Of a stretch of 64,000 nucleotides of DNA, positions 6,538 through 47,743 are shown in pieces. How positions within the stretch are numbered: the first letter of the stretch is position 1; the number at the start of each line of letters is the position of its first letter. A model generated the notes under the pieces. That model saw only the letters and a program-made list of their open reading frames with translations. It ran no database searches and was not told where the DNA came from. Both the position numbers and the translations under genes were made by a program. The DNA is from Gongronella butleri (taxonomy: Eukaryota > Mucoromycota > Mucoromycetes > Mucorales > Cunninghamellaceae). Where the stretch lies: the NCBI GenBank assembly GCA_025201375.1, contig JAIWZP010000024.1, positions 1-64,000 of the forward strand. The letters run 5' to 3'.

Positions 6538-7783
6538 ATGCAAACCATCAAGTGTGTTGTCGTCGGTGACGGTGCCGTGGGGTAAGTGCTTTTTTATCAT
6601 TTTTCGTGTGAAAATGGCGACTCACTGTGCTTTTTTATTATCTCGACCAACAGGAGTACGTTTTGAAAGCAGCAACACGACACGAACCGCGCAAAATGCG
6701 CTCAATTCACTCAATTACTCACCCATCTACCGATTTTTTTCTTTTGTTTTTTTCGCGACACTCCTATTTTTATCGCTTTTTATAGAGGTGAGCATGATTT
6801 TTGAGTTTTGACGAATGTGGACATCCATGGGCACACAAAAAAGACACGCGTGGTCTTGGCACAGTGGTTGCAATGGTGCTGACGTTCTTGTTTTTTTTTT
6901 TTTTTCTAGACCTGCCTGTTGATATCATACACGACAAACAAATTCCCTTCTGAATATGTGCCAACGGTAAGTTTTGAGTGAAAGATGCCAATTTGAAACA
7001 AAACTGACCCCCACCACCCCTTTCCTCGTCATTTTCCAGGTCTTTGATAACTATGCGGTGACGGTCATGATTGGTAAAAATGACTAAATGACGCGAAAAT
7101 GCGTGTTTTTATCCTTTTTTTTCTGCTTTCTAGGCGATGAACCTTATACTCTGGGTCTCTTCGATACTGCTGGTAAGTCGCGCGCGCGCGAAATGAGGAC
7201 AATGAAAAAAAACAATGTGGGGCATTGCCTATTTCATTGATTTGCCCTGGAGCCAAGGGCATGGAAAGGGGAAAAGGGGGACCATGATCTCATTTTCTTT
7301 TTTTTTTTTCAATCAGGTCAAGAAGATTATGATCGCCTGCGCCCTCTTTCGTACCCCCAGACGGATGTCTTCCTTGGTAAACATAGGGTGTCCACGTGAG
7401 GCGCGCCAACAATGACTCATGGTATGCTTCTTTTTATATTTTTAGTGTGTTTCTCGGTGACATCGCCTGCGTCGTTTGAAAACGTCAAGGAAAAGTGGTT
7501 CCCCGAAGTGCACCACCATTGCCCTGGCGTGCCTTGCCTGATTGTGGGCACGCAAATCGATTTGCGCGACGACCCGAATGTCAATGAGAAGCTGCTCCGA
7601 CAGCGACAGCGACCCATCACCTTTGACGCCGGCGAGCGATTGGCGCGCGAGCTTGGCGCCGTCAAGTACGTCGAGTGCTCGGCGCTCACGCAAAAGGGCT
7701 TGAAGAATGTCTTTGACGAAGCCATTGTCGCCGCGCTGGAACCCCCTGTCAAGAAGAAGCCCAGGAAATGTATTCTTTTGTAA
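6538..7783 (+). CDS. CDC42: Cdc42 Rho-family GTPase, 191 aa, 8 exons including two 2-nt exons
   Basis: The product closely matches Cdc42: the [15 protein letters not shown] start, switch I around YVPTVFDNY, switch II ([20 protein letters not shown]), the effector-region [15 protein letters not shown], the SALTQKG G5 box and a C-terminal CILL prenylation box after KKKPRK. It directs polarised growth from the plasma membrane. Exons are 6538-6581, 6654-6655, 6786-6787, 6910-6966, 7040-7073, 7134-7172, 7317-7376 and 7446-7783. The exon 1 end (GG) plus microexons GA and AG give GGG AAG, the invariant P-loop Gly15-Lys16, before ACC for Thr17. The total is 192 codons, exactly the canonical 191 residues. 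Without the microexons the frame is lost and Lys16 is missing. The fourth splice phase and the final length both support the model. Confidence 0.93.
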
Positions 7784-34417: not shown

Positions 34418-36666
34418 ATGTCTGCTGCTTTGCGTCAAACCTTTGAACAAGCCAAGAAACAAAGTAAGTCGTCCAGGTGCTCAAGTGGACTGACAGCGAG
34501 AACGGTGTGATGCTGATGGCGTTTTTTTCTTTTTTTGACAGATCGACCTGCGTTTGTCACATTTGTCACTGCTGGTTTCCCCACGCCTTCTGCTTCCGTG
34601 GACATTCTCCTCGCGCTCCAAAAGGGTGGTGCTGATGTGATTGAGCTTGGTAAAAAAAATTTGGATTGACCATGAGGGTTCAATGGCTGATTTTTCTATT
34701 TTTTTTTTTGCATTTTAAAGGCATTCCCTTTACTGATCCCTTGGCGGATGGTCCTGCGATTCAATTTGCCAACACTATGTCTCTCGAGCACGGCACAGAC
34801 CTGACGATGTGCTTGGACATGGTCAAGGAAGCGCGCAGCAAGGGTTTGACGGTGCCCTTGGTGATGATGGGCTACTACAACCCTGTTCTTGCTTATGGTG
34901 AAGAAAAGATGGTGCAAGACTGCAAGGCTGCAGGCGTCAATGGCTTCATCATGGTGGATTTGCCGCCCGAGGAGTCGCACAGCTTCCGCAGCAAGTGTCT
35001 CAAGTATGGTCTGTCGTATGTGCCTCTTGTTGCGCCCACCACCACGGATCAGCGCCTCCAATTGCTGTCGCAGGTGACGGACTCGTTCATCTATGTCGTG
35101 TCGCGTCTTGGCGTGACTGGCGAGCAAAAGGAGGTGAGCCGCTCGCTGCCGGACCTTGTTGCGCGCATCCGCAAGCACACGACGGTGCATTTGGCCGTGG
35201 GCTTTGGTGTTGCGACGCGTGAACATTTCGTTCAAGTGGGCGAGCATGCCGACGGTGTGGTCATTGGCTCGCGCATCATCAATATCATCCGCCAGTGCAC
35301 TGAAACGGGCACTGACCCCGTGCAGGCCGTGGAAGAGTATGCTTCCAGCATCAGTGCGCGTCAAGTCGCGCTTGTCGCGCCTTCCGGACCTCAACAAGTG
35401 GACAACGCGACGTATGAGGCCAAGGCCGACCCCGTGACGCAAAGCTTTTATGAATTGACCACGCGCTTTGGTGAATTTGGTGGCGCGTATGTGCCTGAAT
35501 CGCTCGTGGAATGCCTGTCGCAACTGGAGCGATGCTTCATCGATGCCAAAAACGACCCTGCCTTTATTGCTGAGTTTGAATCGTACTATGACTACATTTC
35601 GCGCCCTTCGCAGCTCCAATTGGCCAATCGTTTGACGGAAGATGCTGGTGGTGCGCGTATCTGGCTCAAGCGCGAAGACCTCAATCACACGGGCTCGCAC
35701 AAGATCAACAATGCTGTTGGACAGATTCTGCTTGCGAAGCGTCTTGGCAAGAAGCGCATTATTGCTGAGACGGGCGCTGGCCAACACGGTGTTGCGACGG
35801 CGACGGTGTGTGCCAAGTTTGGCCTCGAATGTATTGTTTACATGGGCGAGGAAGATTGTCGCCGCCAAGCGCTCAATGTGTTCCGCATGCGCATGTTGGG
35901 CGCGACGGTGATTCCCGTGACGGCCGGGTCGCGTACACTCAAGGACGCGATCAACGAGGCGATGCGCGACTGGGTCACGAATGTCGAGAGCACACATTAT
36001 TTGGTTGGCTCTGCCATTGGTCCCCATCCATTCCCGATGATTGTGCGCGAATTCCAATCGGTCATTGGCAAGGAAACCAAGCGTCAATTGCAAGAAAAGG
36101 CGGGCAAGCTTCCTGATGCCGTTGTCGCGTGTGTTGGTGGTGGCTCCAATGCCATTGGCATGTTCTATCCCTTTGTCAACGATCCCACGGTGCGCATTAT
36201 CGGTGTGGAAGCCGGTGGTGATGGCGCCGATACCGAACATCACTCTGCCACACTCTCCAAGGGCACTCCCGGCGTGTTGCACGGCACTCGCACGTATTTG
36301 CTTCAAGACACCAAGGGCCAGATCACAGAAACACACTCGGTGTCGGCAGGCTTGGATTACCCCGGCGTCGGCCCTGAACACGCGTTCATGAAGGATTCCG
36401 GACGTGCCGAGTATGTGGTGGCCGACGACGCCCAAGCCCTTATTGGTTTCCGCAAATTGACCCAGCTCGAGGGCATCATCCCTGCCCTGGAATCGTCCCA
36501 CGCCGTCTACGCCGCTCACAAGGTCGCTGCCACCATGCCAAAGGACAAGGACATTGTCATTTGTCTGTCTGGCCGTGGCGACAAGGATATGCACACCGTC
36601 GTCGAGGTCTTGCCCACATTGGGTCCCAAGATTGGCTGGGACTTGCGCTTTGAAACCAACTTGTAA
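34418..36666 (+). CDS. Bifunctional tryptophan synthase (alpha-beta fusion), 699 aa
   Basis: Exons are 34418-34463, 34542-34649 and 34721-36666, 700 codons including stop. The alpha domain comes first: [16 protein letters not shown] holds the catalytic Glu and Asp, and VSRLGVTG and GFGVAT contact the phosphate. A short linker (about residues 265-290) leads to the beta domain: [12 protein letters not shown], the PLP lysine in [29 protein letters not shown] and the C-terminal SGRGDKDM. It converts indole-3-glycerol phosphate and serine to tryptophan with channelled indole. Fusion in this order is typical of fungi. Two introns sit in the first 100 codons. A TATA box lies about 85 bp upstream. 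Confidence 0.97.

Positions 36667-45935: not shown

Positions 45936-47743
<1,808 letters not shown>

Follow-up and report, generated by a model that had tools for sequence, protein, structure and literature searches.

The window analysed here, comprising the first 64,000 nucleotides of contig JAIWZP010000024.1 from the fungus Gongronella butleri (assembly GCA_025201375.1), contains between positions 6538 and 7783 of the forward strand a gene whose predicted product has the features characteristic of the CDC42 family, namely the sequence GDGAVGKT, a length of about 191 amino acids and a C-terminal CaaX (Table 1). The spliced model encodes exactly 191 residues, carries GDGAVGKT as its P-loop, and ends in CILL followed immediately by a stop codon. 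The protein can be aligned without gaps, over all 191 positions, with the CDC42 chain 1grn_A (E = 1.6e-108). In a search of the 33.0 Mb assembly that scored the best candidates only, a second CDC42, whose existence elsewhere would have spoken against this locus in the preliminary description, was not found, and the next-best matches were two RAC genes and RHO genes. Rho/CDC42-like GTPases are also encoded by bacterial metagenome-assembled genomes assigned to Robiginitomaculum, Marinicaulis, Maricaulis and Verrucomicrobiaceae (L021-L028), with best segments that are 50-59% identical to CDC42.

Table 1. Features of the predicted CDC42 gene model (positions in the window) and of microexon-bearing P-loop segments in three further GTPase genes; a slash marks an intron position.
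Feature	Position	Strand	Description
CDC42 exon 1	6538-6581	+	44 nt; last bases GG of Gly15 codon, donor GG/gtaagt
CDC42 intron 1	6582-6653	+	72 nt; donor gtaagt, acceptor accaacag
Branch-point-like ACTCACT, intron 1	A at 6624	+	29 nt upstream of intron 3′ end
CDC42 microexon 1, GA	6654-6655	+	acag/GA/gtacgt; third base of Gly15, first base of Lys16
CDC42 intron 2	6656-6785	+	130 nt; donor gtacgt, acceptor tttttatag
Branch-point-like ACTCACC, intron 2	A at 6721	+	64 nt upstream of 3′ end, somewhat distant
CDC42 microexon 2, AG	6786-6787	+	atag/AG/gtgagc; second and third bases of Lys16
CDC42 intron 3	6788-6909	+	122 nt; donor gtgagc, long T tract, acceptor ttctag
Branch-point-like GCTGACG, intron 3	A at 6882	+	27 nt upstream of 3′ end
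CDC42 exon 4	6910-6966	+	57 nt; begins with Thr17
CDC42 exon 5	7040-7073	+	34 nt; protein-to-genome alignment
CDC42 exon 6	7134-7172	+	39 nt; protein-to-genome alignment
CDC42 exon 7	7317-7376	+	60 nt; protein-to-genome alignment
CDC42 exon 8	7446-7783	+	Includes stop codon; encoded C-terminus CILL (CaaX)
RHO1a Lys16 codon	contig C67, locus L012		A/A/G; three introns, two consecutive 1-nt exons
RHO1b Lys16 codon	contig C56, locus L011	reverse	A/A/G; three introns, two consecutive 1-nt exons
RAS-like microexon AG	L031 902-903, contig C1	+	G/AG/ACA; 2 nt

The preliminary description had placed the end of exon 1, with GG followed by gtaagt, at 6581 and the beginning of the next clear exon, ACC TGC, at 6910, and we confirmed these coordinates, dinucleotides and the reading frame. 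Because exon 1 ends in GG and the next long exon begins with ACC TGC, four nucleotides of the form NAAR, which represents any completion of Gly-Lys, are missing between them. The same description had proposed that two consecutive exons of 2 nt, GA and AG, supply these bases and yield 191 codons, a proposal that is supported by candidate enumeration, by a chain search and by spliced alignment. For the enumeration, segments of 0-19 nt between 6582 and 6909 that are preceded by AG and followed by GT or GC were listed. Two single 4-nt exons are among these candidates, both with GC donors, and neither spells NAAR. Extension of exon 1, extension of exon 4 and the use of GC donors likewise fail to complete Gly-Lys, in agreement with the earlier statement that no single 4-nt exon or alternative site does so. 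A chain search in which the four missing bases could be split in any manner, provided that donors were GT and no intron was shorter than 50 nt, had GA and AG as its sole solution under those rules. Finally, a self-written protein-to-genome aligner, which retains partial codons across introns and imposes no minimum exon length, recovered identical exons, GA and AG included, from the 191-residue CDC42 protein, a query that itself contains Gly-Lys and so forces the aligner to seek those bases.

Both microexons are needed to satisfy the frame and the conserved residues. If GA, AG or both are dropped from the model, the frame reaches a stop once 18 to 29 codons have been read, so that accuracy at these sites would matter in an important gene. 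Positions 6784-6789 of the window also form a tandem acceptor, AGAG, that abuts gtgagc, and use of its second AG would give a zero-length exon and a frameshift.

The likelihood of encountering such solutions by chance was estimated with null sequences of the same length, of which one kind was obtained by shuffling dinucleotides and two others by joining real introns in different ways. In the case of CDC42, these three kinds yielded any solution in 41, 2 and 3 of 3000 sequences, respectively, and in each of the four genes listed in Table 1 the observed splice-site score was reached by 0 of 3000 sequences of every kind. A larger set, built by joining introns of this very genome, gave the same picture for CDC42, with any solution in 13 of 20,000 sequences and the observed score in none. 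Among 20,000 null sequences for each of the other genes, any solution occurred in 820 (RHO1a), 789 (RHO1b) and 498 (RAS-like), and the observed score was attained 0, 0 and 1 times. A chance origin of the CDC42, RHO1a, RHO1b and RAS-like solutions is improbable.

Splice-site strength was assessed with a model trained on 154 introns from GTPase genes of the same genome, leaving out gene models scoring below 120 as well as introns that adjoin exons of 4 nt or less, fall outside 45-700 nt or are not GT-AG. Several CDC42 sites are weak relative to these introns, with the acceptor of intron 1 at the 12th percentile, donor 2 at the 23rd (2nd when three exon bases are included in the score) and donor 3 at the 5th; the last RHO1a acceptor scores lower than all 154. 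GA and AG would nonetheless qualify as ultra-microexons, being no longer than 3 nt and having standard introns on both sides. To every one of the 11 introns of the four clusters can be assigned a donor, an acceptor and, no more than 90 nt from the 3′ end, a YTNAY motif. The more restrictive CTNAY occurs within that distance in nine of the 11 (the other two having YTNAY), compared with 118 of the 154 training introns. In CDC42 intron 2 and RHO1b intron 1 this motif lies 64 and 60 nt from the acceptor, respectively, both beyond the 95th percentile of 57 nt. At 268-361 nt, the interrupted spans are long by the standards of this genome, each being reached by only one of the 154 training introns, as is expected where several introns occur in a row.

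The arrangement in CDC42 is not an isolated case. Both RHO1 paralogs have two consecutive 1-nt exons in the same lysine codon, and an exon of 2 nt is present in a RAS-like gene. In RHO1a and likewise in RHO1b, the A/A/G chain is the only solution of the chain search with GT donors, and no single 2-nt exon with GT donors was found in either. The cluster donors of the two paralogs are identical (gtaagt, gtaagt and gtaagc), and both frames continue to CaaX-like ends followed by a stop. Over the 460 nt compared, exon identity between them is 80%, whereas global alignment of the corresponding introns yields scores of -11, -10 and -0.5, values that are 2.8 to 3.8 standard deviations above those of single-base shuffles. 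The 1-nt exon pattern is thus conserved between the RHO1 paralogs even though the introns hardly align. In the RAS-like gene (L031), the AG exon is again the only chain-search solution with GT donors, and in its paralog L034, which reads GAA at that place, the first of the two introns that flank this microexon is present but the second is not. The mRNA predicted across the P-loop is GGGAAGACC for CDC42 and GGCAAGAC for RHO1.

A survey of GTPase genes across the genome places these four cases in context. It comprised 55 gene models (36 Ras-family, 11 Arf or G-alpha and 8 Rho), of which four score below 80 (L064, L067, L069 and L081); the Arf and G-alpha models represent the part of the PF00025 matches for which a locus had been cut out. 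These models contain 232 introns and 177 internal exons, where terminal exons of local alignments, such as the 4-nt first exon with which the alignment of L062 begins, are not counted as internal. Seven of the internal exons do not exceed 10 nt (1, 1, 1, 1, 2, 2 and 2 nt), and all of them belong to CDC42, RHO1a, RHO1b and L031. The other 170 measure at least 11 nt, leaving no sizes between 2 and 11 nt. Since the remaining 51 models lack any internal exon of 10 nt or less, the aligner is not prone to inventing microexons. Introns at the Lys16 codon lie directly after the codon in 8 of the 55 models, after its first base in 3 and after its second base in 3, and the first-base and after-codon positions are common to CDC42, RHO1a and RHO1b. 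GTPase families also look expanded for a genome of 33 Mb, with four G-alpha, two RAC and two RHO1 genes, in addition to five RAB6-like genes (L029, L044, L052, L059 and L063).

Taken together, the enumeration, the chain search and the null sequences support two 2-nt exons as by far the best reading of positions 6582-6909, and from the genomic sequence we strongly infer that these microexons are genuine. GA and AG would be consecutive constitutive exons of CDC42, such that three ordinary GT-AG introns interrupt a stretch of four P-loop nucleotides to give the arrangement GG/GA/AG/ACC. We assign a probability of roughly 0.88 to the reading in which this is a working CDC42 gene with real ultra-microexons that are excised intron by intron and that arose where introns had piled up. 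The modelled splicing, the order of intron removal and the origin of the microexons are in every case deduced from DNA.

Among the alternatives that we considered, the one that survives best, while still improbable, is use of a non-canonical 3′ splice site, whereby the last intron is cut two bases early and its terminal AG is kept as coding sequence. In all four genes the final intron is preceded by the two coding bases AG, and introns likewise end in AG; the early cut therefore spells the same mRNA in every case, leaving RHO1 and the RAS-like gene without any microexon and CDC42 with GA only. This scheme requires introns that end in AT (RHO1a), TT (RHO1b), GT (RAS-like) and CT (CDC42), and it reduces to coincidence the microexon solutions of RHO1a, RHO1b and the RAS-like gene, whose scores were so rarely or never matched among 20,000 null sequences. 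The retention of the A/A/G sites between RHO1 paralogs with hardly alignable introns also argues against it, and a 2-nt exon would still be required by CDC42. A marginally less probable explanation for the four missing bases invokes one larger intron with unseen splice sites other than GT or GC, RNA editing, or an assembly error. Against it, no alternative with a GT or GC donor was found in CDC42, and a gap of the same kind occurs in four genes, each on a different contig, where microexons fill it exactly every time and the frames are otherwise intact.

The weakness of donors 2 and 3 could instead signify that the CDC42 locus is a decaying or non-functional copy. We consider this very unlikely given the 191 undisrupted codons, the full-length, gapless match to solved CDC42 chains, the CaaX end and the outcome of the assembly search described above, in which no other CDC42 appeared among the best-scoring candidates. 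Least probable of all is a nested arrangement resembling the stwintrons described in fungi, whose excision proceeds through consecutive reactions (PMC8469720, PMC9024468, PMC7138796), because in stwintrons one intron interrupts the splice signal of another and no coding nucleotides are kept between them, whereas in CDC42 the intervening nucleotides are required for Gly-Lys and every cluster intron comes with a donor, a YTNAY motif and an acceptor of its own.

If the microexons are genuine, the manner of their splicing can be considered from the disposition of the sites. Each CDC42 intron has its own donor, branch-point-like motif and acceptor, which would permit its recognition through intron definition. 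Simultaneous use of an acceptor and of a donor that follows it by only 1-2 nt is hardly plausible, which argues for stepwise removal. We propose that the introns are removed one after another, probably in the 5′-to-3′ direction, and that each step joins a tiny exon onto the upstream exon, whereby the next donor would gain an exon of normal size. Such a pathway would amount to recursive splicing in which 1-2 nucleotides are retained per step, and the same process may operate in RHO1a and RHO1b (A/A/G) and in the RAS-like gene (G/AG/ACA). The arrangement expected for recursive splicing is present in the sequence: acceptor and donor are juxtaposed, and the 9-base score of the regenerated donor, calculated as if the upstream intron had been removed first, is higher at five of the seven microexon donors and equal at the other two. 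In CDC42, donors 2 and 3 even then reach no more than the 2nd and 19th percentiles, respectively. The gain in donor score mildly favours a 5′-to-3′ order, and it partly reflects the fact that AAG is a good exon end. Given this effect, and because the second intron flanking the 9-nt exon of potato invertase is reported to be removed first (PMC4674806), the proposed direction is only a guess.

With regard to origin, repeated intron gain at or beside an AG/A site provides the simplest account, and the microexons most likely arose by further intron gain at or next to an intron already present at such a site. Internal exons in the survey are either 1-2 nt (seven) or at least 11 nt (170) in length, which suggests that the microexons were formed by a distinct event, namely intron gain directly at a splice junction that was already there, as opposed to gradual exon shrinkage. 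The fuller proposition, that introns piled up until one codon was split almost base by base and that pairs of 1-nt exons are handled routinely by a ratchet, appears to us about evenly balanced between right and wrong. Duplicated or repeated introns (introners) were considered as a source of the CDC42 cluster, and a DNA search of the genome that skipped simple repeats matched only the cluster itself, with no second copy. Among the 55 possible pairs of the 11 cluster introns, nine align locally with a score that fewer than 5% of random intron pairs attain, where about three would be expected; these fractions are single-test values over 55 tests, the lowest being 0.013. None of the nine pairs joins a RHO1a intron to a RHO1b intron. 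This slight excess of similarity could be due to base composition or to a shared source.

The ratchet points of Drosophila are not known to retain any nucleotide, whereas 1-2 coding nucleotides would be kept at each step in the genes described here. Recursive splicing at these zero-length points (PMC8605326) otherwise resembles the proposed pathway in its stepwise removal and in the regeneration of the next donor where an acceptor and a donor are juxtaposed. The stwintrons of filamentous fungi, described as complex intervening sequences that are removed by consecutive standard splicing reactions (PMC8469720, PMC12403724), are the nearest fungal kind, but in these accounts they are nested and have no exon between them.

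The preliminary description had regarded exons of 2 nt as lying at or beyond the limit of what is recognisable, but such small exons are not without precedent, and exons of 1 nt have already been published (PMC4674806, PMC8831610, PMC12940212). One occurs in Arabidopsis APC11, for which a combination of intron definition and recursive removal was proposed, so that the argument for stepwise removal has already been made for a 1-nt exon (PMC4674806), and another occurs in plant VPS55 (PMC8831610). As presented in those reports, APC11 and VPS55 resemble the present genes in being conserved housekeeping genes with a constitutive exon of minimal size between canonical introns, but each is a plant gene with one microexon, whereas two in a row (2+2 or 1+1 nt) are predicted here from the sequence of a fungus. 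A 1-nt exon in Fusarium CYP621A P450 genes is accompanied by RNA reads in two species, in a paper that also mentions known exons of 2-5 nt from Arabidopsis, Drosophila and humans (PMC12940212). The Fusarium example, as reported, is likewise fungal, was deduced from a base missing at an exon joint and lies within a conserved motif, but it is a single, RNA-backed microexon of another gene family. Several microexons in a row have been described in a plant peptidase M1 gene, where exons of 5 nt and 12 nt are neighbours and gradual intronization was proposed (PMC8831610, PMC11096116), and in human RPS24, which has three microexons between exons 4 and 6 (PMC11162997); the plant exons given in these sources are larger than those found here. 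Within the titles and abstract openings of the literature we surveyed, drawn mostly from outside subscription journals, a consecutive pair of exons of 1-2 nt was not found.

In CDC42 and in both RHO1 genes, the codon for the invariant GTP-binding lysine is apparently spelled by back-to-back exons of 2 or 1 nt, which would probe the lower limit of the splicing machinery. If confirmed by RNA, these genes would indicate that exon length has no practical lower limit, and that this holds even where such exons adjoin one another in an important gene. Exon definition could hardly act on such exons, and the clusters may therefore serve as natural substrates with which to study the ordered use of a nearly abutting acceptor and donor. 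The RHO1 pair and the RAS-like pair would furthermore offer a testable case for the sites at which new introns are inserted. For genome annotation, gene predictors that bar such tiny exons would give these GTPases without the P-loop lysine.

Two additional features were noted elsewhere on the forward strand of the window. An open frame at 34666-36663 encodes fused tryptophan synthase alpha and beta domains, a feature that, like the RHO1, RAC and G-alpha genes, points to a fungal genome. An alpha-tubulin gene, modelled from position 45936 onwards with five exons, has no microexon.
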